From Bacteroidota bacterium (GTDB lineage Bacteria; Bacteroidota; Bacteroidia; Chitinophagales; Saprospiraceae), in the NCBI GenBank assembly GCA_016124585.1, contig WGNL01000006.1, positions 124,001 through 188,000 of the forward strand: a stretch of DNA of 64,000 bases, given 5' to 3'. This document shows positions 1-45,355 of this stretch, in pieces. A program made the position numbers and the translations under genes. Each line of letters starts with the position of its first letter. The stretch's first letter is position 1. The notes below the pieces were generated by a model. The model did no database searches and was not told the DNA's origin. It was given only the letters and a program-made list of their open reading frames with translations.

Positions 1-2736
1 TTTCGATAGCTCCTCGGCCAATTTCACCCGTTGTGCCTCTCCGCCGCTGAGGGTGGTGGCCTGCTGGCCGAGTGTGATGTAGCCGAGGCCCACGTCGTTC
101 AGGGTCTTCAGCTTACGGTGGATTTTCGGGACAGGCTCGAAGAACGCCGTCGCCTCCTCCACCGTCATTTCCAGCACGTCGTTGATGCTTTTTCCTTTGT
201 ACAAAACCTCCAGCGTCTCCCGGTTGTAGCGGCGACCCAGACAGGTCTCGCACTCCACGTACACATCCGGCAGGAAGTTCATCTCAATGACCCGCTGGCC
301 ACTGCCCTGACAGGTCTCGCACCTGCCACCCTTCACGTTGAAGCTGAACCGCCCAGCCTTGTAGCCCCTGATTTTTGCCTCCGGCAAACCCGTGAAAAGG
401 TTCCTGATTTCGGTGAAAAGGTTGGTGTAGGTTGCAGGGTTCGAGCGGGGCGTGCGGCCAATCGGTGACTGGTCAATCTCGATAACCTTGTCCAAATGCT
501 CCAACCCCTTCACCTCTTTGTACGGCAGCGGTTTTTGCAGGCTTTTGTAAAAATGCTGCCGTAAAATCGGGTACAGCGTCTCGTTGATGAGCGAGGATTT
601 TCCGCTGCCGCTCACGCCTGTTACGCAAGTAAAAGTGCCAAGCGGAATGCGCAGGTTCACGTCCCGCAGGTTGTGGCCGGAGGCGTTTTTCAGTTCGAGG
701 AAATGGCCGTTGCCCTTGCGGCGCTTCTTCGGCACTTCGATTTGGCGCTTGCCATTCAGGTAGTCCGCCGTCAAGGTGCTGACGCCTTGGAAACTAGCCG
801 GAATGCCCTCCCCCACAAGTTCACCGCCGTGCTTGCCAGCGCCGGGGCCAAGGTCGATGAGGTAGTCGGCGGCGAGCATGATGTCCTTGTCGTGCTCGAC
901 CACCAGCACCGTGTTGCCGATGTCGGTGAGTTCCCGCAGGGCCTCGATGAGGCGCTGGTTGTCCCGCTGGTGCAGGCCGATGCTCGGCTCATCGAGGATA
1001 TAGGTGATGCCCGTGAGTTGCGACCCGATTTGGGTAGCGAGCCTAATCCGCTGGCTCTCTCCGCCACTGAGGGTGCGGGCCGTGCGGTTGAGTGAGAGGT
1101 AGTCCAGCCCGACGTGCAGGAGGAAGCCGAGTCGTAGGCGGATTTCTTTCAGAACATCTTTGCCAATCGTTAACTGCCTCTCCGTCAGTTTGTTATCCAG
1201 TTCATTCATCCAATCGGCGAGGGCCTGGATGTCCATGTCGGCCAGTTCGGCGATGTTGCGCTCCGCAATCTTGAAGTGCAGGCTCTCGACCTTGAGGCGC
1301 TGTCCGTTGCAGGTCGGGCAAGTGTCCACGGTCATGAACTCCTCCGCCCACTGCCTGATTTTCTCGCTCGATGTGTCCTCGTACCAGCGCTTGAGTTGTT
1401 TCACCAAACCCTCCTGCGCCAGCCCGAACACCCACTCATTGTCACTGCTGATGGACGGCAGTTTGATGGGGTCACCTCCTCCGTGGAGGATGACTTCGAG
1501 GGCTTCCTTCGGAATTTTCTCGACGGGTGTATCAAACGTGAATTTGTATTTCTTCGCAATCTCTTTGAGCTGCTTGAAGGTGTAATTGTCCCGCACCTCG
1601 CCGAAGGGCACGATGCCCTCCTCGTTGATGCTCTTCGAATCGTCGGGGATGACCTTCGCCATGTCCACCGTATTGATTTGGCCGAGACCGTTGCAGGTGG
1701 GGCAGGCCCCGTAGGGCGAGTTGAAGGAGAAGGAATTCGGTGATGGCTCTTCGTAGCTGAGGCCGTGTTCTGCGTCCATTAAATGCTTCGAGAAAACGGT
1801 TAGAGAGGGATGAGGGATGAGGGATGAGGGATGATCGGCTCCTGCGCCCTTCATCCCTAATCCCTCATCCTTCATTCCTGATTTCATCCCTGATGCCTCA
1901 TCCCTCATCCCTAAAACCATGATGAGCCCGTTCCCCATCTTCAGCGCCGTTTGCATGGAGCCAGAAATGCGCTCCCGACGCTCATTGGCCACACTGAGTT
2001 TATCCACCACGAGTTCAATGTCGTGGACTTTGTAGCGATCCACTTGCATTTCGGGGGTGATGTCAAGCACCTCGCCGTCCACCCGCATCTTGGTGTAGCC
2101 CTGCTTGCGCATCTGGTCGAACAGTTCCCGGTAGTGGCCCTTGCGGCCCCGCACGAGGGGGGCGAGCAGCATTACCTTTTTGCCGTCGAACTGCTCCATG
2201 ATTTCGTCCAGCATCTGCTCCTCGGTGTAGCGCACCATTTTTTTGCCGGAAATATGCGAGTAGGCTTCGCCAATGCGGGCGTAGAGCAGGCGCATGAAGT
2301 CGTACACCTCAGTGATGGTGCCGACGGTGGAGCGGGGGTTCCTGCCCGTTGTTTTTTGTTCGATGGAAATGACGGGGCTGAGGCCCGTTATCTGCTCCAC
2401 ATCTGGGCGCTCCATCTCGCCGAGGAACTGGCGGGCGTAGGCGTTGAAGGTCTCCATGTAGCGGCGCTGCCCCTCGGCGTAAATAGTGTCGAAGGCCAGC
2501 GACGACTTGCCACTGCCGCTGATGCCCGTGATGACCACCATCTTATTGCGAGGGATGCGCAGGGAAATGTCCTTGAGGTTGTGCTCTCGTGCACCGACTA
2601 TCTCGATGACCTCATCGTCAAGGATTGCGGTCCCCTCCGGGGATGACAAAGGATTGCGGATTGGGGATTGGGGACTGCCGTTGGTTGACTGTGGACTGTT
2701 TACCCCCGTGGGGCCAACTTTAGATTTCTTTGCCAT
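1..2736 (-). CDS. uvrA: Excinuclease ABC subunit A (partial, C-terminus beyond left edge)
   Basis: DNA-damage recognition ATPase of nucleotide excision repair, partner of UvrB. The frame is open for 912 codons from ATG at 2734-2736 to the left edge. It shows a first Walker A (GISGSGKSS, about residue 72), first signature LSGGESQR (about 558), CPTCNG zinc-finger pieces, second Walker [10 protein letters not shown] (about 709) and second signature LSGGEAQR (about 899). Roughly the last hundred residues should lie outside. Two stretches are foreign to the family: an N-terminal extension (about residues 11-35) and an internal insertion (about 275-310). Both are encoded by tandem heptamer repeats and stay in frame. 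No frameshift or stop is seen. Confidence 0.97.
1807..1911. repeat. Opposed heptamer arrays inside uvrA
   Basis: Four perfect GGGATGA units (1807-1834), a 15-base spacer, then at least eight TCATCCC-type units (1851-1911) in the opposite orientation, so the two halves can pair. The 105 bases are a multiple of three and are read through as part of UvrA, adding about 35 residues between the conserved [10 protein letters not shown] and [11 protein letters not shown] segments. Confidence 0.9.
2651..2704. repeat. Tandem heptamer array in the uvrA N-terminal coding region
   Basis: Four units of GGATTGG type (2651-2678) followed by three of GTTGACT type (2684-2704). They encode the Ser/Pro/Asn-rich leader that precedes the conserved start of UvrA. 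If an internal start were used this would be 5' untranslated DNA, but no ATG in frame follows before the Walker A region. Confidence 0.8.
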
Positions 2737-3033
2737 TTAAGAAGACTGGATTTGCCGTGAATTTGAGACTAACAGTTATCCGGCATGTATGTTCGGGTGG
2801 ACGAGTTGCGAAGGTAGGTGATTCGGGGAACATGAGCCAGTAAAACCATTGGAAGAGCTTATGGTTTAGTAAATATCTCTGTTCACTATGGTTAACTTGA
2901 CATTAAACATTCGTAGAAAAAGTGCCAGAGACTAAAATTTATCACCTGCAAATACGATACTTGCCTTGTGTTTTTCGTCTTAAGCACTGAACTGCCGTTT
3001 ATGCGGTCTTTTATTAATTCTAAAAAAAATATC
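2737..3033. other. Divergent intergenic region uvrA / DUF937 gene
   Basis: About 300 bases between two divergent starts. On the minus strand TACCTTCG (2809-2816) is one base from the phylum's -7 consensus and could serve uvrA. I see no convincing -33 element, no RNA gene and no repeat here. Confidence 0.4.
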
Positions 3034-3663
3034 ATGGGGAACTTATTTGATTTATTGCAAGGTCACATGGACGAGAACGTTGTCGATCACCTCAGTAACC
3101 AAATTGGCGGCGCTGATCGTGCGCAGACTGCCACAGCTGCGCAAAGTATCGTATCTACGTTGCTTGCTGGCCTGGCTAAAAACGCCTCTACACCTGAAGG
3201 TGCTGCAAGTCTCAACAATGCACTTGAGCGTGACCATGATGGCAGCCTACTTGACAACCTAATGGGGATGTTGGGCGGCGGCGGACAAGCTGCTCCTGAG
3301 CAGTCTCGTGCGCTTAACGGCGCTGGCATCATCAACCATATACTCGGGCCAAGCCAAAGCGGTGCCATTGACATGATTAGCAAGATGAGTGGCCTTGACA
3401 GCAATAAAACTGGCAACCTGATGACGACACTTGCACCAATGGTCATGAGTTTGCTCGGCCAACAGAAAAAACAACAAGGCCTTGATGTGTCGGGTCTCGC
3501 TGGGCTGCTTTCCAACAGTGTTGGCCAACAGCGTCAAGCTGGAAACCCGCTCATGGACATGGCTACTCGCTTCCTCGACAAGGACGGTGACGGCTCCATG
3601 ATGGACGACGTGGCTGGTATGGTGGGCAAGGGCTTACTTAGCAAGCTTTTCGGAGGCAGGTAA
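3034..3663 (+). CDS. DUF937 family protein
   Basis: Protein of 209 residues of unknown function. The start at 3034 (MGNLFDLLQGHMDENV) is preferred over an in-frame start 66 bases upstream because the family begins with this amphipathic helix. It is rich in Gly, Gln, Met and Ala, with a repetitive helical pattern and a Gly-rich loop near residue 90 (MLGGGGQAA). A DKDGDGSMMDD stretch near residue 190 looks like an EF-hand-type calcium loop and is commonly seen at the C-terminus of this family. No signal peptide. It stands alone, followed by a strong terminator. Confidence 0.8.
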   Translation: MGNLFDLLQGHMDENVVDHLSNQIGGADRAQTATAAQSIVSTLLAGLAKNASTPEGAASLNNALERDHDGSLLDNLMGMLGGGGQAAPEQSRALNGAGIINHILGPSQSGAIDMISKMSGLDSNKTGNLMTTLAPMVMSLLGQQKKQQGLDVSGLAGLLSNSVGQQRQAGNPLMDMATRFLDKDGDGSMMDDVAGMVGKGLLSKLFGGR

Positions 3664-3717
3664 TTTGCAAATTAAGAATCTTTATCAAGCAAGTTCTTAA
3701 TTCTGAAAATACAACTT

Positions 3718-3746
3718 GGGCGTGGCTTTGGTCACGCCCTTTTTTA
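3718..3746 (+). terminator. Intrinsic terminator after the DUF937 gene
   Basis: Stem GGGCGTG / CACGCCC with an 8-base loop, followed by a run of seven T. Confidence 0.85.
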
Positions 3747-3805
3747 TGAAAAACCAAGGTGAAATTTTGTTCTCCCACAATATTTATCAAGTTACCTAGT
3801 ACTGC

Positions 3806-4717
3806 ATGAACCCTTTCCTTGAGATTTCTCCTTCGGTAAAAGCCGCATTGTCCAACGGCCAGCCAGTTGTGGCACTTGAGAGCACCATCATTTCCCACGG
3901 AATGCCCTACCCTCAAAACTTAGAAACAGCACTTCAGGTGGAACAAGCTGTGCGAGAAAATGGGGCAGTGCCTGCTACTATCGCTATCATCGGAGGAAAA
4001 CTGAAAGCAGGACTGGCGGAGGCTGAAATTGAGTTTTTGGGGAAAACAGGGCTTGCAGTCACCAAGGCAAGCCGCCGTGACATTCCTTTTTTATTAAACA
4101 ATGGAAAACCGGGCGCAACAACTGTGGCGGCCACCATGATCATTGCCGAAATGACTGGTATTCGCATCTTCGCAACGGGTGGTATCGGCGGCGTGCACCG
4201 GGGTGCTTCCGAAACAATGGACATCTCCGCCGACTTGCAAGAGTTGGCTCGAACGAGTGTCGCCGTTGTTTGTGCTGGCGCAAAATCCATCCTCGACATC
4301 GGCCTGACCTTGGAATATCTCGAAACTCATGGTGTACCCGTCATCGGCTACCAGACCAACGATTTCCCTGCTTTTTACACAAGAAAAAGTGGATATGCCG
4401 TAGATTATTGCCTCAATTCACCGTCAGAAATTGCCAAGGTATTGAATGCCAAATGGTTGGCCGGGTTGAAAGGTGGTGCCCTTATCGCTAATCCAATCCC
4501 TGAAGTACACGAACCAGAAGTCGTTTCAGTTCAGGCTGCTACCGAAGTGGCAATTGCTGAGGCAGGCCGTATGGGCATTCGAGGCAACGAAATTACGCCT
4601 TACTTATTGGGTAAAATTAAAGAGTTGACGGGTGGGGAGAGCCTCCGGGCGAATATCGAACTCGTGCTGAACAACGCTCGACTGGCGGCGAGACTGGCAG
4701 TGGAGATGGCGAAATAG
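3806..4717 (+). CDS. psuG: Pseudouridine-5'-phosphate glycosidase
   Basis: Reversibly cleaves pseudouridine 5'-phosphate to uracil and ribose 5-phosphate in the cytoplasm. The 303 residues match the usual family length. The start shows the family's ALESTIISHGMPYPQNLE segment, then IGGKLKAGL, which holds the catalytic lysine (about residue 70). The Gly/Ala-rich TTVAATM and FATGGIGGVHRGA segments bind the ribose-phosphate. No pseudouridine kinase (psuK) lies next to it, so the pathway partner must be elsewhere. It converges on the MoxR gene and shares the long hairpin at 4729-4784 with it. Confidence 0.95.
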   Translation: MNPFLEISPSVKAALSNGQPVVALESTIISHGMPYPQNLETALQVEQAVRENGAVPATIAIIGGKLKAGLAEAEIEFLGKTGLAVTKASRRDIPFLLNNGKPGATTVAATMIIAEMTGIRIFATGGIGGVHRGASETMDISADLQELARTSVAVVCAGAKSILDIGLTLEYLETHGVPVIGYQTNDFPAFYTRKSGYAVDYCLNSPSEIAKVLNAKWLAGLKGGALIANPIPEVHEPEVVSVQAATEVAIAEAGRMGIRGNEITPYLLGKIKELTGGESLRANIELVLNNARLAARLAVEMAK

Positions 4718-4728
4718 TAATGTGCCTT

Positions 4729-4784
4729 CTGAAAAATAGAACGGGCCGACTAGCTTTTGCCAATCGGCCCGTTCTATTTTTCAG
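4729..4784. terminator. Bidirectional terminator between psuG and the MoxR gene
   Basis: Perfect 21-bp arms, with A-rich and T-rich outer ends and a 14-base loop. The position between two convergent stop codons and the A/T flanks on both sides fit termination of both transcripts. An open frame running through it (4720-5181, plus) is an artefact of the MoxR antisense. Confidence 0.9.
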
Positions 4785-4821
4785 TCGGAAACTGCTACTA
4801 ATAACACCTTGGAGGAGTCCG

Positions 4822-5793
4822 TTAGAACAAGCTTTGGATGATAGCCTCTTCAGTAATGCCTTCTGCTTCCGCCTTATAATTCCGCACGATACGGTGGCGA
4901 AGTACATAGTTGGCGATAGCCCGCACATCTTCAATGTCAGGGGAATATTTTCCACTAACGGCGGCATGACATTTTGCACCAAGTACCAAATATTGCGAAG
5001 CACGTGGACCAGCCCCCCAAGAAATATAGTCGTTAACTTTTTGCGTTGCACGCTCCGTGCCAGGGCGGGTCTTTGTGGCAAGGCTAACGGCATATTCCAA
5101 GACATTGTCAGAAACCGGAATTTTGCGCACAAGTTGCTGAAAAGCAAGAATTTGTGTGTCGTTCAAAATGTGTTTCAGTGATGCTTTTTCAGCGCCAGTC
5201 GTGTTTTTTACCACGCTTATTTCTTCTTGGTAAGAAGGGTAATCCAATGGAATATTGAACATGAAACGGTCGAGCTGTGCCTCCGGCAATGGGTAGGTGC
5301 CTTCTTGTTCGATGGGGTTTTGCGTAGCAAGCACGAAAAAAGGAGCAGGCAGCACATGGCGCTCGCCAGCCACCGTTACCGAGCGCTCCTGCATGGCCTC
5401 CAGTAGGGCGGCTTGAGTCTTGGGCGGTGTCCGGTTAATCTCATCAGCCAAGACGATATTGGAGAAAAGCGGGCCTTTATTGAATTTGAAGTGGCGGTCG
5501 TCGCCAAGTATTTCCGAGCCAGTGATATCTGAAGGCATGAGGTCGGGGGTGAACTGGATACGCTTGAAGCCGAGGTCCAGCACTTCAGCGATGGTGCTCA
5601 CGAGTAGCGTTTTTGCAAGCCCCGGCACACCTACCAGTAGGCTGTGGCCATTGGAAAACAGGGAAATTATAACTGATTTTACGACATCGTCTTGACCGAC
5701 AATGACCTTCCCAATTTCTTTTTTGAGTTCTTTGTACGATTGTGCCAAAGCATCAACCGCTTCGACATCGGACTTGTAGGCAGTTTGAGACAT
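4822..5793 (-). CDS. MoxR-family AAA+ ATPase
   Basis: Cytoplasmic AAA+ chaperone-type ATPase of 323 residues. MoxR proteins usually help mature or activate metal-dependent or von Willebrand A (VWA) domain partner complexes. Walker A is GVPGLAKT (residues 55-62) and Walker B is VLADEIN (114-120). Sensor 1 is in the LATQNPIEQEG segment, which is typical of the MoxR clade. The usual neighbours (DUF58, VWA and BatA/BatB genes) are absent, so this copy is detached from a Bat operon. cysS is the next gene upstream on the same strand, about 110 bases away. Confidence 0.93.
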   Translation of the reverse strand: MSQTAYKSDVEAVDALAQSYKELKKEIGKVIVGQDDVVKSVIISLFSNGHSLLVGVPGLAKTLLVSTIAEVLDLGFKRIQFTPDLMPSDITGSEILGDDRHFKFNKGPLFSNIVLADEINRTPPKTQAALLEAMQERSVTVAGERHVLPAPFFVLATQNPIEQEGTYPLPEAQLDRFMFNIPLDYPSYQEEISVVKNTTGAEKASLKHILNDTQILAFQQLVRKIPVSDNVLEYAVSLATKTRPGTERATQKVNDYISWGAGPRASQYLVLGAKCHAAVSGKYSPDIEDVRAIANYVLRHRIVRNYKAEAEGITEEAIIQSLF

Positions 5794-5906
5794 AATTTTT
5801 ACGTGATATTTTTAGGTTGGAAACAGTCGAATAATTGCTCCGAACATATTAACAATCTGCTAAAAACGGTGTTGACTAAGTAATTGTTGCGAGAACATCA
5901 ATGACC

Positions 5907-7409: not shown

Positions 7410-7416
7410 AAGGGCG

Positions 7417-9587: not shown

Positions 9588-9627
9588 TAATTCTGCTCCC
9601 TAGCGTTTCAATATTCAATATAAGCTT

Positions 9628-13153: not shown

Positions 13154-13156
13154 TTT

Positions 13157-20705: not shown

Positions 20706-22523
20706 TCAAAATACGCTCACATATCCAAAATGCACTTTCGGGTTGCGAAAATCCAACGGCTCACCGGACAGCCTGCCGACTGCCAAGCTGATGCCGAACA
20801 CTCCGGCCGTTGTCTCGAACGTCAAGCCACTACCAAAGCCAAGGGGGCGGTCATACTCAGTTTTTAAGCCAATGCGGCGGTCTTCCAAGTAGGCATAGTC
20901 ACCAAAAGCGTAGAAATAGGAATTTCTGCCCACCAGCAGGCGGTATTCCAGGGTGAAAACACTGTACAGTGTTGCAAAAATGCTCTCTTCGTCAAACCCC
21001 CTCAGCAATTTGTTGCCACCGATGCGGAACTGCTCGTTTTGGTAAATTTTTTCTTGCGAAAAAATAGCGCCACTCCGGGCTGCCAGCTTTACGGTACTCC
21101 GTTGCATGACGGGGAAGTAGCGCTCCAATCTCCCATCCAGCGTGAAGCGGAACGCCCGACCCGGCAGCGTGTCATAAAAACTTTCCGACACTTGCAAAAT
21201 CGCTTGGTTCCTTTCGATTTTTCGAACACCGGCACTTCCTTTTGCTACAGCTACCCACCCCCGGCGAGGGTTGAAGCGGTAGTCGAGAGCCTGCCAATTT
21301 GCTTCCAGGCCAAACGCCCGATTCCGCACATCTAGCTGGCTGGGGAAACGGCCTTGCCGGATGGCCACCGTATCTACCGTGAGTAGGTTGGAGGCGGTGG
21401 TATTCCAAAATGCTTTGAGGTAGTTGCCGCCCTGAAACAAGTACTGTACCCCGAATTCGCCAATGACATCTGTGTAGGTGCTGTCCCGGCGGTACTGGTT
21501 GAACTTGAGGTCTACACCAAACGGCAGTTGCAGGATGTAAGGGTAGGTGAAAGCCACCTCCAGCCGCTGGGTCTGGGGGCGCAACCGCTCGAACGAAGTG
21601 TAGATACGCTCACCCAGTCCAAACTGGTTCTGAAACTCAGCATTGAATGTACCGGTAATCAATACTTTTTGGTCGGGGCTGCCATTGTTTGGCAATACAC
21701 CAAGCAGGAAGTCGAAACGGCTCGCCTTCTTTTTTTCGAGGAAAAGTTTCAGATTGGCAGTACCTTCCCGAAAGGTGACAAGAGCATTTTTTTTCTCTTG
21801 CAAGAATGGCAGTTCTTGTACCCGCTGGCGGATTTTCAGCACCCGTTGGCGGCTGTAAGGCTCTCCCGCCTTGATGCCAAGGTATTGTCGGAGGTAGTTT
21901 TTGGAGATCTTGGCGTCACCTTCCACCGTTAGGCTGTCGAAAAGGACGAGGGGGCCTTTGTGTAGAAAAAGTTTAGCGGTGATTGGTGATTGATGGCTGC
22001 TGATTGGTGATTCGTTGAATTCAAGGCTGTCTAAGTAAACTTTAGCAAAAGGGAAGCCGTTGTTTTCCGCCTGCTGAAGTATTCGCTCCTGCGTTTTTTG
22101 GAGGTCGGTGAAATTGAGCGGCTTTTTCCTATACAATTTTGGTCGAAAACCGCTTCTGTCTAGGAAATCGGAAGGTATGTTACCGTTGGAAATATTGGCC
22201 CACTCGTAGGCGGGGCCAAGGTGTAGCCAAGCGGTCAGGGTACTGTCCTGTAAGTCTGTGCTGTCAATGGAGGCTTCGAGATAAGCTAGAGCTTGGAGTT
22301 GGTTGGTGATATTTCTTAATTCATTGAAAACCAAGCTACTATCTACAAAACGATTTTCGTGCTTCAGGTTTTTTTGGAGAAAAGCGCTGTCAACGTCTAG
22401 GGGAATGAGGTGGAGATGGATGGATGTTTGGGCGCTCGTTTTTCCAAAAAACAGGAAAGCTGGCAGCGTGAACGCCATCATTTTCAAGAGGTTTTGCTTC
22501 GCAATTTTCTTAGAAAAACGCAT
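20706..22523 (-). CDS. BamA/TamA-like outer-membrane protein
   Basis: Omp85-superfamily protein of 605 residues. It has a signal peptide (about 1-31, ending KTSAQ), POTRA-like segments (about 60-110 and 185-255, with LTVEGDAKISKNYLRQYL), and a C-terminal beta-barrel (about 270-605) ending in FGYVSVF. The barrel contains the conserved GGNKLLRGFDEESIFA and FGSGLTFET. It is likely to act in insertion or translocation of outer-membrane proteins. It is shorter than BamA. Residues about 171-181 (SPISSHQSPIT) come from a five-unit heptamer repeat inserted in frame before a POTRA domain. Confidence 0.88.
   Translation of the reverse strand: MRFSKKIAKQNLLKMMAFTLPAFLFFGKTSAQTSIHLHLIPLDVDSAFLQKNLKHENRFVDSSLVFNELRNITNQLQALAYLEASIDSTDLQDSTLTAWLHLGPAYEWANISNGNIPSDFLDRSGFRPKLYRKKPLNFTDLQKTQERILQQAENNGFPFAKVYLDSLEFNESPISSHQSPITAKLFLHKGPLVLFDSLTVEGDAKISKNYLRQYLGIKAGEPYSRQRVLKIRQRVQELPFLQEKKNALVTFREGTANLKLFLEKKKASRFDFLLGVLPNNGSPDQKVLITGTFNAEFQNQFGLGERIYTSFERLRPQTQRLEVAFTYPYILQLPFGVDLKFNQYRRDSTYTDVIGEFGVQYLFQGGNYLKAFWNTTASNLLTVDTVAIRQGRFPSQLDVRNRAFGLEANWQALDYRFNPRRGWVAVAKGSAGVRKIERNQAILQVSESFYDTLPGRAFRFTLDGRLERYFPVMQRSTVKLAARSGAIFSQEKIYQNEQFRIGGNKLLRGFDEESIFATLYSVFTLEYRLLVGRNSYFYAFGDYAYLEDRRIGLKTEYDRPLGFGSGLTFETTAGVFGISLAVGRLSGEPLDFRNPKVHFGYVSVF
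21978..22012. repeat. Five heptamers inside the BamA-like gene
   Basis: Units GGTGATT (three copies), GATGGCT and GCTGATT form an uninterrupted 35-base tandem, read in frame by the minus-strand gene. Confidence 0.85.
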
Positions 22524-28648: not shown

Positions 28649-28654
28649 AAAATC

Positions 28655-28728
28655 CAATGGTCAATGGGCAATTGGTGAACTGTGAACAACGCATTTTACC
28701 ATTCTTCATTCTCCATTTATCATTCATC
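28655..28728. repeat. Opposed heptamer arrays between rimP and nusA
   Basis: CAATGGT-type units (28655-28689) are followed by four ATTCATC-type units (28701-28728). The second set is roughly the reverse complement of the text ATGGTGAAT used elsewhere. They fill the whole 88-base gap. Confidence 0.75.
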
Positions 28729-28736
28729 AGAACAGG

Positions 28737-29990: not shown

Positions 29991-30062
29991 ATGATGAATG
30001 ATGAGTGATGAGGAAACTCCCCTTGTCCTTCAATTTTATCTCCTCGTCATTCATCATTTATT
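29991..30062. repeat. Opposed heptamer arrays between nusA and infB
   Basis: ATGATGA, ATGATGA and GTGATGA (29991-30011), then CCTCGTC, ATTCATC and ATTTATT (30042-30062) in the opposite sense. The two sets can pair and end ten bases before the infB ATG. Confidence 0.7.
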
Positions 30063-37190: not shown

Positions 37191-38030
37191 ATGGATAAAT
37201 CACCCGACTCGAATGGTCGCACTCTCGAAATCACCCGCCTTCTCGACGCTCCCCGTGACCTCGTTTGGGAAGTTTGGACGAACCCCGAACACATCAAAAA
37301 CTGGTGGGGGCCCGAGGGTTTTACCAATACGATTGATAAAATGGAGGTGCGGCCTGGAGGTGTTTGGGAATTTACGATGCACGGGCCGGATGGCACGGAT
37401 TACCGCAACGTGCACGTGTACGTAGAACTGGTGAAGCCGGAGCGCATCGTGCTGAACCACGTGACCGGGCCGAAGTTCACCATGACGGCGACCTTCACAG
37501 AGGAAGGCAACAAAACCCGGATTCACTTGCATAGCTTATTCGAGAGCGATGAACAATTGGCGCACGTCATTCAAGTATTCAAGGCGGACGTGGGCATGAA
37601 GCAGAATGTGGACAGGTTAGAGGCGTACCTCGCTGGACAATCCGAAGTCCGAAGTCTGAAATCCGAAATCATTGAACCTCGATACGTGCTGGCGGTGCAA
37701 AATCTGGCTGTCTCAGTGACACATTACCAAGAAAAACTGGGCTTCACGACCGATTGGGCCTACGATGGCTGGCATCAATTGCGCCGGGGAAAATTCGTCG
37801 TCATGCTCGGTGAATGCACTGACGACCGCTCGGCTTTTGAGACCCGCAACCATTCCTACTTCGCCTACGTGCAGGTGGAAGGTGTGGACGATTTGTACCA
37901 CGAACTCGTTGGGCGGGGTGCTGAAATCCACTACCCACTGGGCAGCAAACCTTGGGGGATGAGGGAATTTGGCGTCATCACTGTGGATGGCCACCGCATC
38001 ATGTTTGGGCAAGAATTACCAAAGGATTGA
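37191..38030 (+). CDS. SRPBCC (AHSA1) domain fused to a glyoxalase/bleomycin-resistance domain
   Basis: 279 residues. The first domain (about 1-145) is an AHSA1-type SRPBCC fold (ITRLLDAPRDLVWEVWT, NWWGPEGF). The second (about 160-279) is a VOC fold (VLAVQNLAVSVTHYQEKLGF, VQVEGVDDLYHELVGRGAEI, FGVITVDGHRIMFGQ). The linker SEVRSLKSEI is encoded by four tandem TCCGAAG-type heptamers. The stop codon falls inside the palindrome at 38024-38108. The fusion may bind or modify a small ligand; the substrate is unknown. Confidence 0.9.
   Translation: MDKSPDSNGRTLEITRLLDAPRDLVWEVWTNPEHIKNWWGPEGFTNTIDKMEVRPGGVWEFTMHGPDGTDYRNVHVYVELVKPERIVLNHVTGPKFTMTATFTEEGNKTRIHLHSLFESDEQLAHVIQVFKADVGMKQNVDRLEAYLAGQSEVRSLKSEIIEPRYVLAVQNLAVSVTHYQEKLGFTTDWAYDGWHQLRRGKFVVMLGECTDDRSAFETRNHSYFAYVQVEGVDDLYHELVGRGAEIHYPLGSKPWGMREFGVITVDGHRIMFGQELPKD
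37641..37668. repeat. Four heptamers forming the linker of a fused gene
   Basis: Units TCCGAAG, TCCGAAG, TCTGAAA and TCCGAAA in tandem, in frame, exactly at the junction of the SRPBCC and glyoxalase domains. Confidence 0.85.
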
Positions 38031-38108: not shown

Positions 38109-38127
38109 AAATTTCAAATAATTTATC

Positions 38128-39057: not shown

Positions 39058-39062
39058 AACAG

Positions 39063-39096: not shown

Positions 39097-39133
39097 GATT
39101 TTCGCCTACCTTTCCCCCATAAAATCACCTCGC

Positions 39134-39436: not shown

Positions 39437-39495
39437 CCTTTGGCAGCAACCAGTTCGAGGCGCTTCCCGACTTATTGTTTGACAATCAACATTTT

Positions 39496-39930
39496 ATGAA
39501 CGAAATTATTCGCTTCGCAAAAACACCCGAAGATATTCAGCTTTGCTGCCCAGTCATCATCGAACTGCGACCACACCTTGCCAAAGTGGATTTGGTGGCG
39601 ATGGTGATGGAGATGTTTTCCGAAGGTTTTCAGCTCATTTTCATCGAAGCGGAAGACGGCACAGCGGCGGCGATTTGTGGATACCGTTACCTGCAAAACC
39701 TGTTCACGGGCAAGCATATTTACGTTGATGACCTCGGCATGCTACCTACCCACCGGGGCAAGGGCTATGGCGGTGCTTTGCTTGATTTTGTTTTCGAAGC
39801 GGCAAAATCACAGGGTCTTAAAACGGTCACTTTAGACTCTGGGCACCAGCGTTTTGCAGCACATCGGCTCTACCTGAACAAAGGCTTTCAGATTGAGGCA
39901 CATCATTTTGGTAAGAAGTTGGATTCCTAA
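39496..39930 (+). CDS. GNAT family N-acetyltransferase
   Basis: 144 residues. CoA site: DDLGMLPTHRGKGYGGALLD. Motif B: VTLDSGHQRFAAHRLYLNKGF. This arrangement is typical of small GNATs that act on free amino compounds. The ATG at 39496 is preferred over one 21 bases upstream. It stands 60 bases after the DUF1330-like gene and converges on a lipoprotein gene. Confidence 0.9.
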   Translation: MNEIIRFAKTPEDIQLCCPVIIELRPHLAKVDLVAMVMEMFSEGFQLIFIEAEDGTAAAICGYRYLQNLFTGKHIYVDDLGMLPTHRGKGYGGALLDFVFEAAKSQGLKTVTLDSGHQRFAAHRLYLNKGFQIEAHHFGKKLDS

Positions 39931-39956
39931 GTTGAGCGGACCTTACACCCACAGGC

Positions 39957-40490
39957 TTATGGTTGCACTGTCGAAAAGAGTTCATCCAAATAATACTCCC
40001 TGGTCGTCGCATTGTAATTATCCAAACAACCCTCAATCCCGCTGCGCATGATACTTTTGCAGGTATTATTTTGAAAAGCTGTTTCCAAATGCCCCCTGCC
40101 TAGGATGCAATGGCCAAGTTCATGGAATACCACCATTTCCTTGTAATAGACGGAGTTTGTACTGTTCCAAAAACCCTTATCAATGATGATGTCATGGCCC
40201 GCATGACCACCATAAGTGCAGGAGCCTGCTACGTTTTCCTCAGTGATTTCAGCGATTTTGGCAGTGAGGTCGGTACTGTTCAGGTTGATGGTGATACTCC
40301 TGTTGGCGGCTTCCACTTCAAAGTTTTGGAGGTAAGTCCAGAGCGCCTTGTCGGCCTTCGGAAATGATTTTGTGGCAGTCGTAGTGGTAGCATCTACTGT
40401 CTCCACTAAGTTGTCGTCTTTCTGGCAGGAGGTACCAAAGAGGAAAATGACTGTAAATATTGCTATGGGCAAAACGATTGACTTTTTCAT
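39957..40490 (-). CDS. Putative zinc metalloprotease lipoprotein
   Basis: 177 residues. Signal peptide with lipobox GTSC (C22). Acidic/Thr-rich spacer, then a helix, then FHELGHCILGRGH (about 121-133). HExxH is followed by a third His one residue later than in canonical metzincins. CKSIMRSG (about 144-151) could be the Met-turn. It is likely a surface-attached peptidase; the substrate is unknown. No other protease domain is present, so it is a compact enzyme. Confidence 0.82.
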   Translation of the reverse strand: MKKSIVLPIAIFTVIFLFGTSCQKDDNLVETVDATTTTATKSFPKADKALWTYLQNFEVEAANRSITINLNSTDLTAKIAEITEENVAGSCTYGGHAGHDIIIDKGFWNSTNSVYYKEMVVFHELGHCILGRGHLETAFQNNTCKSIMRSGIEGCLDNYNATTREYYLDELFSTVQP

Positions 40491-40653
40491 AAGTGAAGCA
40501 GTTGGAAATTAGGTAATGAATGTTGAAAAAGTGTAGAATAGCCTATAGTCAACCGTTTGTGAGGCATAATAACTGAAAGAGGCTACGGAATGTTGTGTAA
40601 GCCCGGTTTAGCCGAAAATTATTACACGTGTTTTTTTGGAAAAATATCCCCAA

Positions 40654-41100
40654 TTATATATCCAACAGCCGCCGATGGTAGTTGACCTGCCCCAAGTGAT
40701 AATCCAGGTGTACAGCCAAATGCACCAAAAACTGGCCAGCTGTAGTCGGCACTTGAAAAACTGGCGTCGTGAATTCTGCATTCATTTCGTCATCGGTCAT
40801 GTTTTCTATTACTGTTTCCACCATTTGAATAGTATCTTCAATGCCCTTGATCAGCTCGGTTCGGGGAATATTTTTCGAAGAAAATTCCAAATCCCGCTGT
40901 CGCACATAACCGGTATGTCCCATTTGTGCGCCGATAAAATGGTTAATATTGCCAACCAAGTGCAAGCATAGGTTTCCTGCTGAATTGGTGATGTTTTTAT
41001 CCACTCGCCAAATCACATCTTCGTTTTGGTAGGCGGCAATTTCAGTTTTTAGTTTGGCGAGGTCACGCTTGAATAGTCGTATTAAAATGTCTTTTAGCAT
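40654..41100 (-). CDS. DinB-superfamily protein (DUF1572-like)
   Basis: 148 residues in a four-helix bundle. Candidate metal ligands are His in LCLHLVGNINHF and HLAVHLDYHLGQVNYHRR. DinB-like proteins are often thiol-dependent transferases or nucleases of unknown substrate. Isolated gene with AT-rich flanks on both sides. Confidence 0.85.
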   Translation of the reverse strand: MLKDILIRLFKRDLAKLKTEIAAYQNEDVIWRVDKNITNSAGNLCLHLVGNINHFIGAQMGHTGYVRQRDLEFSSKNIPRTELIKGIEDTIQMVETVIENMTDDEMNAEFTTPVFQVPTTAGQFLVHLAVHLDYHLGQVNYHRRLLDI

Positions 41101-41313
41101 CGTTTTTTAGATTTATGAGTTAGGCAAAAATAATACTATTGGAAGAGTTTATTTCGATCAGTTTTGAAAAATAAAGTAGTCCGGTTTTCTTAGGATGCCA
41201 ACATGTTTTAAATTAAAAATTGAATGCTAAAAGATAATTGCCATGTATGATTATGCCTTTTAGAATAAACTGAAAAACAACTTGATATAGAATTAATTCT
41301 TTTTGAGATTTAT

Positions 41314-41802
41314 TCAGAATATGAACCAATAAACTGTTGCCAAAGTAATCGAAATTGTCACAAAGATGGCGACTCGCACATAATTCCATTTTTTCCAATT
41401 TGCAGTTCTAATGGCTAAATTCCCAAGCTCAGAATTTTCATCAATTCCCTGAAATTCAATAATATTTTTTGCAAAATAAACTATCGTCCATATCCGTACA
41501 GAAAAGTGGAGAATGAATAATGAAACCAACCAGTTTCTGAGTGTTGGGATATGCCATGCGAAAACAATAGAGGTGATAAATATGATTTCATGAATACTAT
41601 GGAAAGCTGTCCAGAAAGACTTTAAACTCGTACCATTTTTATCCGTTAAATAATGAAAATTATATGGCGGATTGACTGTCCATTTTGGCACAAAAACCAA
41701 AGTCTCAAATATTTGTGCGCCGTTCATTAAAAAATAAATTAGGCAATTTAGCAACAACCAAAATTCAGCCCTCGTCATATATTCCTGCGATAAATTTTCC
41801 AT
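41314..41802 (-). CDS. Four-helix membrane protein of unknown function
   Basis: 162 residues with four hydrophobic helices (about 13-38, 72-88, 92-110 and 140-160) and a Trp/Tyr-rich loop (VFVPKWTVNPPYNFHYLTD). The plan is reminiscent of small anthrone-oxygenase-like or DUF1772-type proteins, but I cannot assign it. The coding sequence is visibly more AT-rich than its neighbours. It starts four bases after the MarR stop, so the two form an operon and MarR may control it. Confidence 0.72.
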   Translation of the reverse strand: MENLSQEYMTRAEFWLLLNCLIYFLMNGAQIFETLVFVPKWTVNPPYNFHYLTDKNGTSLKSFWTAFHSIHEIIFITSIVFAWHIPTLRNWLVSLFILHFSVRIWTIVYFAKNIIEFQGIDENSELGNLAIRTANWKKWNYVRVAIFVTISITLATVYWFIF

Positions 41803-41806
41803 CGTT

Positions 41807-42268
41807 TTATTGCTTGTTGAATTGGTTTATGGTTTCGTTCATTATCTGCGTTGCATCATTAAAATAGCGTTCTATCACCTGTAATTCCTCCACTGAAAAA
41901 GTCTGCAACAATGCCGTCGTTTTTCGGTGCAAGTCAGCAAAAAGTGGCGTCAGCAATTCCGTTGTTGCTGCCAGGTTGGGTGCGACGAGGATTTTGCGAC
42001 GATCGGTTTTATCGAATTTTCGATTGACCAATCCTTTTGCCTCCAGTCGGTCAATCATGCCGGTGACAGCGCCCGTCGTCAGGTTGGTAATTTGTGCGAT
42101 TTCTCCTGCTGTCCATTCTTCTTTTTGAAGAATCAGACCCAAATATTTGTGATCAGTTCCGGTCAGCCCTGCCTTTCGGGCGATGGCCTCATGCATGAGG
42201 ATGGAGGTGTCGGAATAGGTGCGACTGGCCTTGCGGAGCTTTTCTAAAACGTCTTTTTTTGAACTCAT
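41807..42268 (-). CDS. MarR-family transcriptional regulator
   Basis: 153 residues of the winged-helix MarR fold. The recognition region is EIAQITNLTTGAVTGMIDRL, and the wing is NRKFDKTDRRKILV. A 45-bp inverted repeat containing the gene's own -7 box precedes the ATG, which indicates autorepression. Its only co-transcribed target is the membrane protein downstream; the divergent DUF1905 gene starts 113 bases away and may also respond. Confidence 0.93.
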   Translation of the reverse strand: MSSKKDVLEKLRKASRTYSDTSILMHEAIARKAGLTGTDHKYLGLILQKEEWTAGEIAQITNLTTGAVTGMIDRLEAKGLVNRKFDKTDRRKILVAPNLAATTELLTPLFADLHRKTTALLQTFSVEELQVIERYFNDATQIMNETINQFNKQ

Positions 42269-42270
42269 GT

Positions 42271-42315
42271 CTCAGTAAATAATTATCTTAGTTGCAAAGA
42301 TAATTATTTACTGAG
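42271..42315. promoter_or_regulatory. MarR operator overlapping its promoter
   Basis: Perfect 19-bp arms (42271-42289 and 42297-42315, beginning CTCAGTAAATAATTATCTT) separated by 7 bases. The minus-strand -7 box TATCTTTG occupies 42295-42302, inside the repeat, and the MarR ATG is two bases beyond it. Confidence 0.85.
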
Positions 42316-42380
42316 ATTTTCCCATTTGCTCGCATATTTCCACAAAATTTTAATTTGCAAGCTAAATTAGAGGAACCATC

Positions 42381-42860
42381 ATGGCCATTTTTCGAGCTGA
42401 AATTGAAATCATTGGTATCAACCCTTATGTACTCCTGCCAGCGGAAATACTTCAGGCGTTATTGGAAAAGGCTGGAAAACACAAAGGGAAAATCCCCATC
42501 AAAGGGCAGGTGAATGGCTTGCCTTATCAGCAAACGCTTGTTAAATACGCAGGTGAATGGCGGCTTTACATCAATATGGCTATGCTAAAAGATTCGCCCC
42601 GCAGGATTGGGGAAGAAATTGAAATCAGCATCGAATATGACACCAGCGACCGATCCATCCCGATGCACCCTGCATTGCAAGCAGCCTTAGAAGGTGATGT
42701 TGCCGCTTTAGAGAAATTCGAAAGTTTGTCGCCGTCTCGTCGAGTGGAAATCATCAGGTACATCAGTCGCCTTAAAACGGAGGAAAGTGTGGAGCGGAAC
42801 GTGGCGAGGGCTATTAGGTTCTTGAAAGGGGAAGGGCGTTTCGTGGGGAGGGATATTTAA
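42381..42860 (+). CDS. DUF1905/YdeI-OmdA family protein
   Basis: 159 residues. The N-terminal DUF1905 beta-barrel (about 1-95) has KIPIKGQVNGLPYQQTLVK and LYINMAML. The C-terminal bacteriocin-protection, YdeI/OmdA-like helical part has SPSRRVEIIRYISRLKTEES. Function unknown; family members are linked to stress resistance. The TAA stop is the start of a heptamer array (42859). Confidence 0.88.
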   Translation: MAIFRAEIEIIGINPYVLLPAEILQALLEKAGKHKGKIPIKGQVNGLPYQQTLVKYAGEWRLYINMAMLKDSPRRIGEEIEISIEYDTSDRSIPMHPALQAALEGDVAALEKFESLSPSRRVEIIRYISRLKTEESVERNVARAIRFLKGEGRFVGRDI

Positions 42861-42923
42861 TGGTAAATGATTAATGGTGAATTATAAATAGCCGCTCGCA
42901 TTAACCATTCATCATTTACCATT
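42859..42923. repeat. Opposed heptamer arrays downstream of the DUF1905 gene
   Basis: AATGGTA, AATGATT and AATGGTG (42859-42879), then ATTAACC, ATTCATC and ATTTACC (42900-42920). The two sets are complementary, with about 20 bases between. The array begins in the stop codon of one gene and ends six bases before the convergent stop at 42929. Confidence 0.85.
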
Positions 42924-42928
42924 GTAAA

Positions 42929-43813
42929 TCATGCTATTTTCACCGAAGTCATGGTCAACGACCCGCCAACAGCTTTGTCGTTGAAGAAGCTGATTTCGTC
43001 CTTTTCATCTTTCAAAGCCAAGGAGTAAAGTAGGGGCAAATAATGTTCTGGCGTTGGGATGGAAAGCTGGAACGGACGGCCCTCTGCCGAGTAGTTTATA
43101 AGGCGCTGGTGGTCGCCGTCGGCAATAAATTGTTTAAACTTCGTATTGGCTTCAATGGCCCAATCATAGCCGTAGTTATCAGTATTTAGCTTGCTCCAAG
43201 CCACCATGCCGAGGTTGTGTACCATGTTGCCACTGCCTACGATGAGCACGCCTTTTTTGCGAAGCGCCGCAATTTCCTTTGCCAATTCGTAATGCTGCTG
43301 CGGCGTGCGGCGCACATCGAGGCTGAGTTGGATGATGGGCACGTCAGCGTTGGGGTACATATGCTTGGCCACTGACCAAGCGCCGTGGTCGAGGCCCCAT
43401 TTCTGGTCGAGTCCAACTTGCGTGGATTTGATAAGTTCTTTGGTTTCGGTTGCTAATTCAGGGCTGCCTGGCGCTGGGTACTGCACATCGAACAACGCCT
43501 GCGGAAAGCCGCCGAAATCGTGGATGGTCTGTGGCTTGTCCATGGCCGTCACCCATGTGCCATTCGTTTCCCAATGTGCTGACACACAAAGAATTGCGTT
43601 GGGTTTTGGTATTTCCTTGCCCACTTGACGGAAGCCCTGCACGAACTCGTTTTCCTCAATGGCATTCATCGGACTGCCATGCCCGAGGAAGAGAACGGGC
43701 ATTTTATCTGTATTGGAAAAGCCGCTCGTAGCGCTGTCCAAGCAGCTGAGTTTCATTGCCGATGTGGCGATTGGAATCGTTGCCATGAGTTTGAGGAATT
43801 GATTACGGTTCAT
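42929..43813 (-). CDS. Extradiol ring-cleavage dioxygenase, YgiD/4,5-DOPA type, exported
   Basis: 294 residues. The core matches YgiD (4,5-DOPA extradiol dioxygenase): LFLGHGSPMNAIE, AHWET, GLDHGAWSV and GSGNMVHNLG, with His residues for the metal. Unlike cytoplasmic YgiD it has an N-terminal extension MNRNQFLKLMATIPIATSAM, a signal-like sequence with two-residue similarity to Tat-type leaders. A periplasmic location or lipid attachment at the later Cys is therefore possible. Start at 43813. Its aromatic substrate is unknown. Confidence 0.9.
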   Translation of the reverse strand: MNRNQFLKLMATIPIATSAMKLSCLDSATSGFSNTDKMPVLFLGHGSPMNAIEENEFVQGFRQVGKEIPKPNAILCVSAHWETNGTWVTAMDKPQTIHDFGGFPQALFDVQYPAPGSPELATETKELIKSTQVGLDQKWGLDHGAWSVAKHMYPNADVPIIQLSLDVRRTPQQHYELAKEIAALRKKGVLIVGSGNMVHNLGMVAWSKLNTDNYGYDWAIEANTKFKQFIADGDHQRLINYSAEGRPFQLSIPTPEHYLPLLYSLALKDEKDEISFFNDKAVGGSLTMTSVKIA

Positions 43814-43826
43814 GATAAAGAGGATT

Positions 43827-43917
43827 TTTAACACGAAGGCACAGAGGCATTGAGAAACACAGAGCGGTTATTGAAATTTCTCTGTGTAGCTTCGTGGCTC
43901 TGCATCTCCGTGTTAAA
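43827..43917. repeat. Long imperfect palindrome between the YgiD and YceI genes
   Basis: About 38-base arms: TTTAACACGAAGGCACAGAG... (43827-43864) pairs with ...CTCTGCATCTCCGTGTTAAA (43880-43917). The text is of the widespread 'CTCTGTG..CTCCGTG' intergenic repeat type. Confidence 0.85.
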
Positions 43918-43927
43918 TCAAAGGCTT

Positions 43928-44509
43928 TTACTTCGTCACCAAGTTCACCTGAAGGTCGAAGTCGTCGTAGATAGTCTTGTCGCCGAGGCCGTCGAAGAAG
44001 GAGCCAGAGCCGTACTTCACGTCGAACTCAGAGCGGTCAATTGTGATTTTGCCAGTAGCCGTTGGCTTGCCGTTGGTATTGGCCACATTTGCCAGAAACT
44101 TAACTTCTTTTGTAGTCTCTTTGATGGTCAAGTTACCGATGATTTTGTAGTTGCCCTTTGTGTCTTGTGGCAGCGCACGGGTGATGACAAACTTAGCTGT
44201 TGGGTGATTGGCAACGCCAAAAAAATCGTCAGATTTCAAGTGACCAATCAATTTACCAGCCATGTCGCCTTGAAGGTCAGTGCTAGTGATGCTGTTCATG
44301 TCGATGTCAAAAGAGCCGCCTTTAAGGATGCCGTCCTGCATTTGTAGGGAACCGCTCTTAATTTTTACGTTGCCGGTGTGCTCGCCAGTTACTTTGTAAC
44401 CTTTCCACACGATGTTGCTGGCATTGGTATCCACACTATGGTCAGTGATGGCTGTCGTGAAAGCGAAGGTGGCAATTGCCATGATTGAAAGAAAAAAGAA
44501 ATTTTTCAT
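43928..44509 (-). CDS. Exported YceI-family lipid-binding protein
   Basis: 193 residues. Signal peptide MKNFFFLSIMAIATFAFTTA, then a lipocalin-like YceI barrel: TDLQGDMAGKLIGHLKSDDF, ANHPTAKFVITRA and NLTIKETTKEVKF. YceI proteins bind isoprenoid-type lipids in the periplasm. Start at 44509. It follows a second YceI gene on the same strand, from which it is separated by a palindromic repeat. The two may be specialised copies, one exported and one not. Confidence 0.92.
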   Translation of the reverse strand: MKNFFFLSIMAIATFAFTTAITDHSVDTNASNIVWKGYKVTGEHTGNVKIKSGSLQMQDGILKGGSFDIDMNSITSTDLQGDMAGKLIGHLKSDDFFGVANHPTAKFVITRALPQDTKGNYKIIGNLTIKETTKEVKFLANVANTNGKPTATGKITIDRSEFDVKYGSGSFFDGLGDKTIYDDFDLQVNLVTK

Positions 44510-44547
44510 GTTTAAATTAAAATGGTGAATTATTAAAATTGTCATTG

Positions 44548-44630
44548 GTCATTTGCTTTGCGTCATTAATCATGTTATGAATGACCTAATGACTATTGAC
44601 AGCGAAGCGAAATGACGCAAAGCAGATGAC
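44548..44630. repeat. Palindromic repeat between the two YceI genes
   Basis: 20-base arms 44548-44567 and 44611-44630 (GTCATTTGCTTTGCGTCATT and its complement with one mismatch). Degenerate heptamers (ATTGGTC, ATTAATC) fill part of the space. The right arm ends on the last base of the stop codon of the upstream gene. Confidence 0.8.
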
Positions 44631-45166
44631 TAGTTTTGCTTTATAAACTGCACCTCACATTCGATATGCACCTCGTCGCTCACGAGCACACCGCCTGTTT
44701 CGAGCGCAGCGTTCCAAATGAGGCCATAGTCCTTTCGGTTGACGACACCCGTGATAGAAAAGCCCGCTTTTTCATTGCCCCAAGGGTCTTTGCCAATACC
44801 GCCAAACTCGACGCTGAGCGATACTTCCCTTGTCACACCTCGGATAGTCAGGTTGCCGGCAAGCCGGTAATTTTCAGGGTCGAAACGGCAGCAAGAGCCG
44901 CCCACGAAAGCGATGGTTGGGTGGTTTTCGACATCAAAAAAATCGGCGCTGCGCAAATGGGCGTCCCGGTCTGCTTGGTTGGTGGTGACGCTGGCGGCGT
45001 CAATTTTTACCTCAACTTCCGCCTTCCGGAAATCCTCCCCATCGGAGAGCACAGTGGCTTCAACTCCTTTGAAACTGCCCTTTACCTTGGCAATCATCAT
45101 GTGGCGGACGGTAAAATTGATTTCGCTATGTGCCGGGTCTAAAACCCATTTTGTCGTATTGGCCAT
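44630..45166 (-). CDS. YceI-family protein (no signal peptide)
   Basis: 178 residues. It begins MANTTKWVLDPAHSEINFTV, the usual start of the YceI barrel without a leader. It contains HLRSADFFDVENHPTIAF, NLTIRGVTREVSLSVEFGG and KDYGLIWNAALETGGVLVSD. It therefore probably acts in the cytoplasm. Length and motifs are complete. Its start lies about 190 bases from the Crp/Fnr gene upstream on the same strand. Confidence 0.92.
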   Translation of the reverse strand: MANTTKWVLDPAHSEINFTVRHMMIAKVKGSFKGVEATVLSDGEDFRKAEVEVKIDAASVTTNQADRDAHLRSADFFDVENHPTIAFVGGSCCRFDPENYRLAGNLTIRGVTREVSLSVEFGGIGKDPWGNEKAGFSITGVVNRKDYGLIWNAALETGGVLVSDEVHIECEVQFIKQN

Positions 45167-45320
45167 GGCCTATTTTGATTTTGCTGGCGCAAAGATGGGG
45201 GCACAACGAGGAGAGCACCATTCACATAGGTTAACTTCGTTCAGGATTGATTTCTTGGAATAATTTGGAAAACAAACTGGCCTTATAAAACCATGGTTTA
45301 ATGAAAAGCAATCTTACTCA

Positions 45321-45355
45321 ATTCACCATTCATCATTTATCATTCACCATTAATC
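45321..45355. repeat. Five heptamers abutting the Crp/Fnr stop codon
   Basis: ATTCACC, ATTCATC, ATTTATC, ATTCACC and ATTAATC in uninterrupted tandem. The next base begins the stop codon of the minus-strand Crp/Fnr gene. Confidence 0.85.

Follow-up and report, generated by a model that had tools for sequence, protein, structure and literature searches.

Tandem heptamer and octamer arrays of a Saprospiraceae genus form polarised hairpins and may be scars of DNA synthesis

For decades, tandem arrays of heptamers have been described here and there among bacteria, and filamentous cyanobacteria reportedly carry one such class, the short tandemly repeated repetitive (STRR) sequences of Mazel 1990. 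Three papers place heptamer arrays in cyanobacteria, Xanthomonas, Beggiatoaceae and five Bacteroidetes (PMC3488679, PMC4692102, PMC4679880). Namely, degenerate heptads were found in the P6b stem of the Nostoc trnL intron (PMC3488679); Rehm 2015 described GGGAATC repeats in Xanthomonas and GGGGA(C/T)T repeats in Nostoc, with 70 and 75 convergent G-rich heptamer pairs in two Xanthomonas genomes (PMC4692102); and MacGregor 2015 described TAACTGA repeats in Beggiatoaceae, in cyanobacteria and in five Bacteroidetes (PMC4679880). These papers gave no settled origin or function. Here we analysed degenerate heptad arrays in a 64,000-nt stretch of DNA from a Saprospiraceae genome (the window) and in related genomes, where the arrays had a period-8 companion class and often formed hairpins with the G-rich arm on the 5' side. 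Our reading, favoured but held tentatively, is that they are scars of DNA synthesis, made by slipping, folding growth of 3' ends, rather than regulatory RNAs.

The window was G000:C10:124001-188000, G000 being the source genome (6.63 Mb in 45 contigs), whose closest named relatives by InfB were mostly Saprospiraceae metagenome genomes. Arrays were detected with Tandem Repeats Finder (TRF) and by lag self-similarity, with a segment score of at least 9 in the window and at least 10 in 630 kb of G000; the controls were ten first-order Markov shuffles for the window, order-2 Markov shuffles for the 630 kb, and other lags for the effect of coding. At lag 7 the window gave seven segments against a mean of 0.2 in its shuffles; there were none at lags 5, 8, 10 and 13 (the window itself thus held no lag-8 segment above threshold), four at lag 6, and two each at lags 9 and 12. 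The 630 kb gave 39 lag-7 segments against 1.6 in shuffles, and 1, 2, 2 and 3 at lags 5, 10, 11 and 13, 9 at lag 6, 12 at lag 12 and 15 at lag 8. The count against shuffled controls, which the original prediction had named as its check, thus came out in its favour, and neither base composition nor short-range order accounts for the lag-7 excess.

The genus comparison set consisted of G000 and 13 further genomes (G001-G012 and G020). Arrays were counted in a genus sample of stretches totalling 1.907 Mb over 11 genomes (790 kb of the 6.63 Mb in the case of G000), which sat at contig positions given by earlier searches rather than covering whole genomes; in the resulting figures, homologous hairpins from sister species are counted separately, as are the two arms of a single hairpin. 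This sample contained a second class, with 75 octad arrays beside 95 heptad arrays. Lag 8 gave 16 arrays in G000 and 22 in G007, where lag 7 gave 8. The octad units included GAAGGATT and TTGTTGAA, again in inverted pairs. Thus, the exact period of seven that had been proposed for these repeats held in the window and did not hold in the genus. Lags 5, 9, 10, 11 and 13 gave 0-3 arrays in each of the five larger genome samples (the small G004 sample had six at lag 10), and the whole genus sample gave 21, 13, 14, 14 and 30 at lags 6, 9, 10, 12 and 15.

Many of the arrays were paired. In the 630 kb of G000, 16 of 39 arrays had an inverted partner within 150 nt, a count that may include both arms of one hairpin, against 1, 5 and 1 for reversed, complemented and direct controls; the opposed pairs proposed earlier were thereby borne out. 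In the genus sample 34/95 heptad arrays had an inverted partner, compared with 1, 8 and 8 in the reversed, complemented and direct controls, and so did 45/75 octad arrays, compared with 2 (reversed) and 10 (direct). Moreover, the hairpins were strongly polarised. The G-rich arm was 5' rather than 3' in 43:4 heptad hairpins, with 8 balanced, and in 44:0 octad hairpins, with 4 balanced. By genome, heptad and octad ratios were 18:1 and 16:0 in G000, 6:0 and 4:0 in G001, 6:1 and 9:0 in G006, 5:1 and 12:0 in G007, 6:0 and 3:0 in G008, and 2:1 and 0:0 in the remainder. Named loci of the family and the phylum gave 8:1 and 5:1, and hairpins within called genes 11:0 (heptad) and 9:0 (octad), compared with 23:9 for non-periodic ones. 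All four paired loci of the window had the G-rich arm 5'. The polarity was not set by gene direction, because a hairpin reads alike on both strands; it suggests that, at the time of inverted copying, the 3'-growing strand was the G-rich one.

Head-to-head telomere fusions have the same polarity. Together with the recurring units described below, this would agree with a templated enzyme that adds telomere-like G-rich repeats to broken 3' ends, which are then joined head to head. We consider such an enzyme very unlikely, since the many families would demand many templates, Ku was found in 0/14 genus genomes, and the reverse-transcriptase family had no match in G000 (estimated by the tool as 100% complete), a genome rich in arrays. 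Reverse transcriptase was present in 7/14 genus genomes (there was none in G000, G008, G003, G005, G011, G012 and G020) and Y1 transposases in 12/14. None of these three, Ku, reverse transcriptase or Y1 transposase, is required by the array pattern.

The dispersed hairpins, and the RAYT-like genes in G000 and its relatives, could also suggest repetitive extragenic palindromes or bacterial interspersed mosaic elements (REP/BIME) mobilised by a Y1 transposase of the REP-associated tyrosine transposase (RAYT) kind. When array regions were compared by BLAST, G000 yielded 138 hits and G006 yielded 228; 46 and 32 of these, respectively, extended at least 15 nt past the scored array. When 23 array regions (15 octad, 8 heptad) were read by eye, the matches beyond the array proved to be the opposite arm and degenerate array ends. 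The loops differed and none was common to these regions, which also bears on conserved termini of the type found in miniature inverted-repeat transposable elements. The RAYT-like gene examined in G000 (L318, G000:C35:59968-62183; 62.4 bits on the REP-associated tyrosine transposase model, cut-off 80) was flanked on both sides (761-870 and 1501-1610) by palindromes of its own, of AACACGGACTGCCAGTCCGTG type and unrelated to the heptads; this locus is probably a REP/BIME system of G000, separate from the heptads. A broken second Y1 match of G000 (L319) had no heptads in the flanks fetched. Heptad hairpins occurred in two of eight regions around Y1/RAYT-like matches, within a few hundred bases of the matches in L321 and L323 (G007 and G012), which is too few to judge. 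Given the many families and the lack of a common loop, we find mobilisation by RAYT hardly credible.

The level at which the arms were kept complementary was addressed through mismatches, which were counted with a strand-symmetric stem finder, identical hairpins being dropped and sister-species homologues kept. On the mRNA strand, the 41 heptad hairpins of codirectional gaps had 57 G.U and 64 A.C mismatches, compared with 25 and 8 in 53 T-tailed non-periodic gap hairpins (p 0.005) and 179 and 129 in 199 other non-periodic gap hairpins (p 0.005); heptad against all non-periodic gap hairpins gave a Fisher value of 0.019. Within genes the counts were 9 and 12 for heptad hairpins (16) and 103 and 104 for non-periodic ones (149). 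Octad hairpins had 21:34, so that heptads and octads pooled gave 78 and 96, and an earlier run with less sequence and a lower threshold had given 49:46 for heptad and 190:120 for non-periodic hairpins. Single changes under selection on the transcript should leave more G.U than A.C, and the heptads showed no such excess, which points to arm complementarity that seems to be made or maintained mainly at the DNA level. Processed small-RNA hairpins, which the original prediction had entertained, found no support, as the stems lacked the G.U excess of terminator-like hairpins. Nor did the hairpins resemble intrinsic terminators, since a T tail followed the stem in only 5/25 heptad and 6/22 octad hairpins in codirectional gaps.

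Evidence for an RNA role came from the rpoB-rpoC gap. Our survey returned 30 loci for 37 matching genomes, 17 of these loci lying outside the genus. A hairpin was present in 13/13 readable genus genomes, with z of -5.1 to -12.1 against mononucleotide shuffles (G005 had no match). Outside the genus 14/17 loci were readable, nine with z above -2.5 and five with -3.3 to -5.0. Heptads scored in G000, G001, G008, G011, G006, G009 and G010 (GTGATT type) and in G012 (AATTGGG, a different family), G020 had a degenerate GTGATT type by eye, and the hairpins of G007, G004, G003 and G002 were without scored heptads. The units also changed in concert: in the 5' arm, 3/4 units ended in A in G000 and 4/4 in G in G001. 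With the structure taken from G001, the arms covaried, 7/27 pairs being changed on both sides in four genomes (0/500 shuffles) and 9/27 doubly changed when six genomes were aligned (1/500 shuffles). At nusA-infB the covariation was weak (3/24 pairs). Accordingly, functional hairpins (attenuators, terminators or mRNA stabilisers) at rpoB-rpoC and rimP-nusA-infB, built of heptads because these expand easily, would explain the hairpin kept in all readable genus genomes and the covariation of its arms. We nevertheless judge this explanation improbable, because covariation came without a G.U excess on the mRNA strand, T tails were few, 47/95 heptad arrays lay within called coding sequence, and 61/95 had no partner by the score used.

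The arrays were also compared at other orthologous sites. In the nusA-infB gap, heptad hairpins were seen by eye and by folding in G000, G001, G005, G007, G008 and G012, with weaker folds in G003 and G004 and other palindromes in G006; G009 and G010 were examined by eye, without a fold. Other heptad families occupied this gap in L040, L046, L052 and L071, from the same family of bacteria. The G006 gap (L128, 4717-4987) held a row of long non-heptad palindromes where sister species had the heptad hairpin, and the first 198 nt of these palindromes had a predicted folding energy of -91 kcal/mol. The linkers of InfB, scanned for heptads in 12 genomes, gave one short score-8 match (G004) and nothing array-like.

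The Omp85 loop carried inserts in G000, G001, G005, G006, G008, G011 and G012, with units AATCACC, GGCAGTT, AATCTGA (G006, G008, G011) and AATCCGC, and in G012 GGCAGTT followed by AATCCGA; six of 12 readable relatives (G007, G009, G002, G010, G004, G003) had no insert, and G020 was cut by a contig end. In the uvrA loop, a GAGGGAT hairpin of varying copy number was found in G000, G011, G005 and G008, and another hairpin in G001 and G006; G010 and G002 had C-rich hairpins, and G012, G007, G003, G004 and G009 had none (G020 had no match). The insert of G006 and G001 (L198 and L200) was a distinct inverted one, TGACCCCTGACCCCTAAAGGGG...CCCCTTTAGGGGTCAGGGG, and a similar hairpin occurred at L301 4377-4491. 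The window array at 45321 was missing at the orthologous place in G005, G006 and G007, and the G011 contig ended there. In syntenic stretches, G001 in turn had one heptad hairpin among ribosomal genes upstream of rpoB (L122 11793-11897), where G000 had other sequence. Sequence comparison indicates that a number of sites are common to several genomes but have had their units, copy number and arms rewritten, and that other sites are private. Full conservation at orthologous sites between distant species had been named as the result that would speak against the proposed repeat system. The outcome was halfway: several sites recurred in a large part of the genus, with differences in sequence and copy number and, in many cases, in family. 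Across the phylum, the pattern YAATCAC x3 was found in 17/395 Bacteroidota genomes against 3/395 for a permuted unit; a reversed-unit control is invalid for this pattern, since AATCACT read backwards is again a rotation of the same unit.

Of the 95 heptad arrays of the genus sample, 47 lay in called coding sequence, 40 between genes and 8 at edges, and the 75 octad arrays were divided 14, 53 and 8. Since coding sequence made up 89% of the sampled DNA, the arrays were enriched in gaps, although these labels are approximate because genes were called by a crude longest-ORF (open reading frame) rule. Among single in-gene arrays, 30/34 with a skew were C-rich in the sense strand and 6 were balanced, a bias for which stop codons arising from the G-rich strand could be responsible. 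With sister species and both arms included, 94 heptad arrays fell into 48 rotation classes, compared with 85 expected when letters were shuffled within units (minimum 77 of 200 shuffles), and 75 octad arrays into 42 compared with 71. Once double counting was removed, by taking one array per locus within each genome, the recurrence became smaller yet remained: G000 had 23 classes in 32 heptad loci (30.8 shuffled) and 11 in 14 octad loci (13.9), and G006 had 13 in 19 (18.6) and 7 in 15 (14.5), each with 0/500 shuffles as low. G007 had 13 classes in 17 octad loci (16.7; 0/500 shuffles), and its 8 heptad loci were all distinct. Most of the commonest units had no run of three G or C. A 185-nt array of G003 (L124 19158-19342) mixed AACTGAC with AACTGGC units in no fixed order, only one position being variable.

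These results bear on a rival explanation, namely ordinary slippage of local sequence with point mutation, with inverted pairs arising by occasional quasi-palindrome template switching and with neither a special process nor a function. It accounts for the different copy numbers of the uvrA arrays and for the concerted units of rpoB-rpoC, and it has a precedent in Mrazek's polymerase-footprint idea, as reported in PMC4679880. On the other hand, it does not lead one to expect the same units at unrelated loci of G000 and G006 (the 8 heptad loci of G007 raise no such difficulty), the strong arm polarity, the peaks at lags 7 and 8, or arrays where relatives had no precursor, as in the Omp85 loop. 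We therefore regard slippage of this kind as doubtful, though worth keeping in view.

In the window, the eight degenerate tandem loci of the original prediction were recovered. TRF reported period 7 at seven of them (1805-1834 and 1851-1912 for the first, then 2651-2678, 21978-22012, 28700-28729, 29992-30012, 37639-37670 and 45321-45355, with 28700-28729 being its call for the 28655 locus), and the eighth, 42859, was too degenerate for TRF and visible at lag 14 (42857-42889). An additional 2.1-copy period-7 array reported by TRF, at 9607-9621, was absent from the earlier list. The mixture of intergenic and in-frame arrays was likewise confirmed. The minus-strand uvrA gene (1..2736, recognised by UvrA domain matches) ran off the left end of the window and carried two heptad inserts, both translated in frame. 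The first was a hairpin with a G-rich 5' arm of GAGGGAT x4.3 (1805..1834, plus strand) and an opposed C-rich 3' arm (1851..1912, minus strand; TCATCCC on the plus strand), and the second, near the UvrA N terminus, read GGATTGC, GGATTGG, GGATTGG, GGACTG (2651..2677, plus). A minus-strand Omp85/POTRA gene (20706..22523) contained an in-frame GGTGATT x5 array (21978..22012, plus).

The remaining arrays and arms were all annotated on the plus strand. The rimP-nusA gap had a degenerate G-rich 5' arm (28654..28687) and a C-rich heptad 3' arm (28695..28729), and the nusA-infB gap an ATGATGA array as G-rich 5' arm (29991..30012) with a C-rich 3' arm (30041..30061). Between convergent genes, a degenerate G-rich 5' arm that overlapped a stop codon (42857..42889) paired with a C-rich 3' arm, TTAACCATTCATCATTTACCATT (42901..42923). 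A single ATTCATC/ATTCACC array (45321..45355) followed the stop of a cNMP-binding-domain gene. Finally, an AATCCGA/AAGTCCG array (37639..37670) formed the in-frame linker of one ORF (37191-38030) with AHSA1 and glyoxalase domains. This long form was also present in G011 (86% over 276 residues); G005, G006 and G007 had a good match for the glyoxalase half only, without an array upstream.

In our reading of the arrays as scars of DNA synthesis, a 3' end under extension, whether at a stalled fork or at a break, would slip in 7- or 8-nt steps and produce a G-rich tandem array. The end would then fold back and copy the array, so that the resulting hairpin would have its G-rich arm on the 5' side and its C-rich arm on the 3' side; alternatively, two G-rich ends might be joined head to head. 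The same slipping and fold-back would keep rewriting old arrays, giving concerted units, complementary arms and replacement of one family by another at one site, and survivors would be found where an insertion is tolerated, between genes or in frame within protein loops. The two main periods, the recurring units, the pairing and its polarity, the covariation without a G.U bias, the turnover at orthologous sites and the empty sites were observed; the growth of the 3' end, its folding back or joining, and a polymerase footprint behind the 7-8 nt step are inferences, as any choice of polymerase would be. A step of this size would fit the idea, attributed to Mrazek in PMC4679880, that it corresponds to the length of DNA gripped by a polymerase. 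Polarity, the period-8 twin class, unit recurrence and the lack of a G.U bias speak for a process at the DNA level that moves in steps of 7-8 nt. The arrays also show one way in which conserved proteins such as UvrA acquire in-frame inserts.

A number of observations weighed against this reading. The rpoB-rpoC hairpin was retained in all 13 readable genus genomes, including four that lacked heptads there, a hint of selection for a hairpin at this site, and further pair types in the covariation were not clearly above shuffles (49 and 139 of 500). Non-periodic hairpins leaned the same way (103:42 with 215 balanced, and 19:4 for T-tailed gap ones), and therefore part of the polarity may be general. 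The G.U-versus-A.C contrast was modest at the Fisher value given above; lag 15 likewise gave 30 arrays, 7 of them with an inverted partner; and the genus counts were not independent, because of the sister-species hairpins and paired arms among them. Plain slippage does not predict unit recurrence, so the reading additionally needs either a preference for certain sequences or copying from one array to another. Moreover, few repeats were paired in Nostoc PCC 7120 (PMC4692102), and the evidence was entirely comparative, with no mutation watched.

With respect to novelty, the original prediction knew of no described mechanism for such repeats in this phylum; heptamer arrays as such had already been reported there, namely TAACTGA in five Bacteroidetes (PMC4679880). 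In the open-access literature we found no report of period-8 companions, of an arm polarity across families or of Saprospiraceae arrays, most subscription journals lying outside this search. A broader possibility is a telomere-like bacterial reaction in which broken or stalled 3' ends gain recurring G-rich 7- or 8-nt repeats and are closed by fold-back or head-to-head joining, so that STRR, GGGAATC and the present arrays would be one phenomenon across several phyla; we hold this to be quite unlikely.

The present arrays shared with REP/BIME and RAYT systems their dispersed intergenic hairpins, but had no conserved sequence or loop, and the RAYT-like gene of L318 was accompanied by other palindromes. 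The TAACTGA repeats were similar in being Bacteroidetes heptamers, with 7-nt indels between strains and shorter, repeat-less gaps in relatives (PMC4679880). They differed in being a single motif, which in the Beggiatoaceae genome described there usually lies close to a start codon and is hardly ever inverted, whereas the present arrays had many motifs and were often paired or in frame; TAACTGA occurred neither in the window arrays nor in the 22 commonest units, though no genome-wide search for it was made. In common with the repeats of Rehm (PMC4692102), ours were heterogeneous heptamers, mostly intergenic, with lengths varying at shared genes, and the convergent G-rich pairs of Xanthomonas had the same polarity as the present hairpins, the paired arrays converging with the G-rich arm first (43:4 and 44:0). 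In contrast, that paper described one main family per species, a G-quadruplex focus and few Nostoc pairs; the present arrays comprised many families, many units without GGG, and period 8 too.

The likeness to STRR that had been suggested for the window was apt in form, with degenerate tandem 7-nt repeats, several families, mixed placement and pairing arrays. Against the consensus families of cyanobacterial hosts, only the 2651 array matched by eye, being of GGGGA(T/C)T type. This is the GGGGATT/GGGGACT type described in Nostoc (PMC4692102), and the degenerate tandem heptamers, hairpin-forming pairs and copy-number variation also resembled the Nostoc trnL heptads (PMC3488679). Unlike STRR, the present arrays belonged to another phylum, had many families per genome, formed in-frame inserts and included octads, so that a strict period of seven described the window and not the genus with its 75 octads. 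Beyond the STRR comparison, the polarity and the mismatch type of the present arrays were measured.

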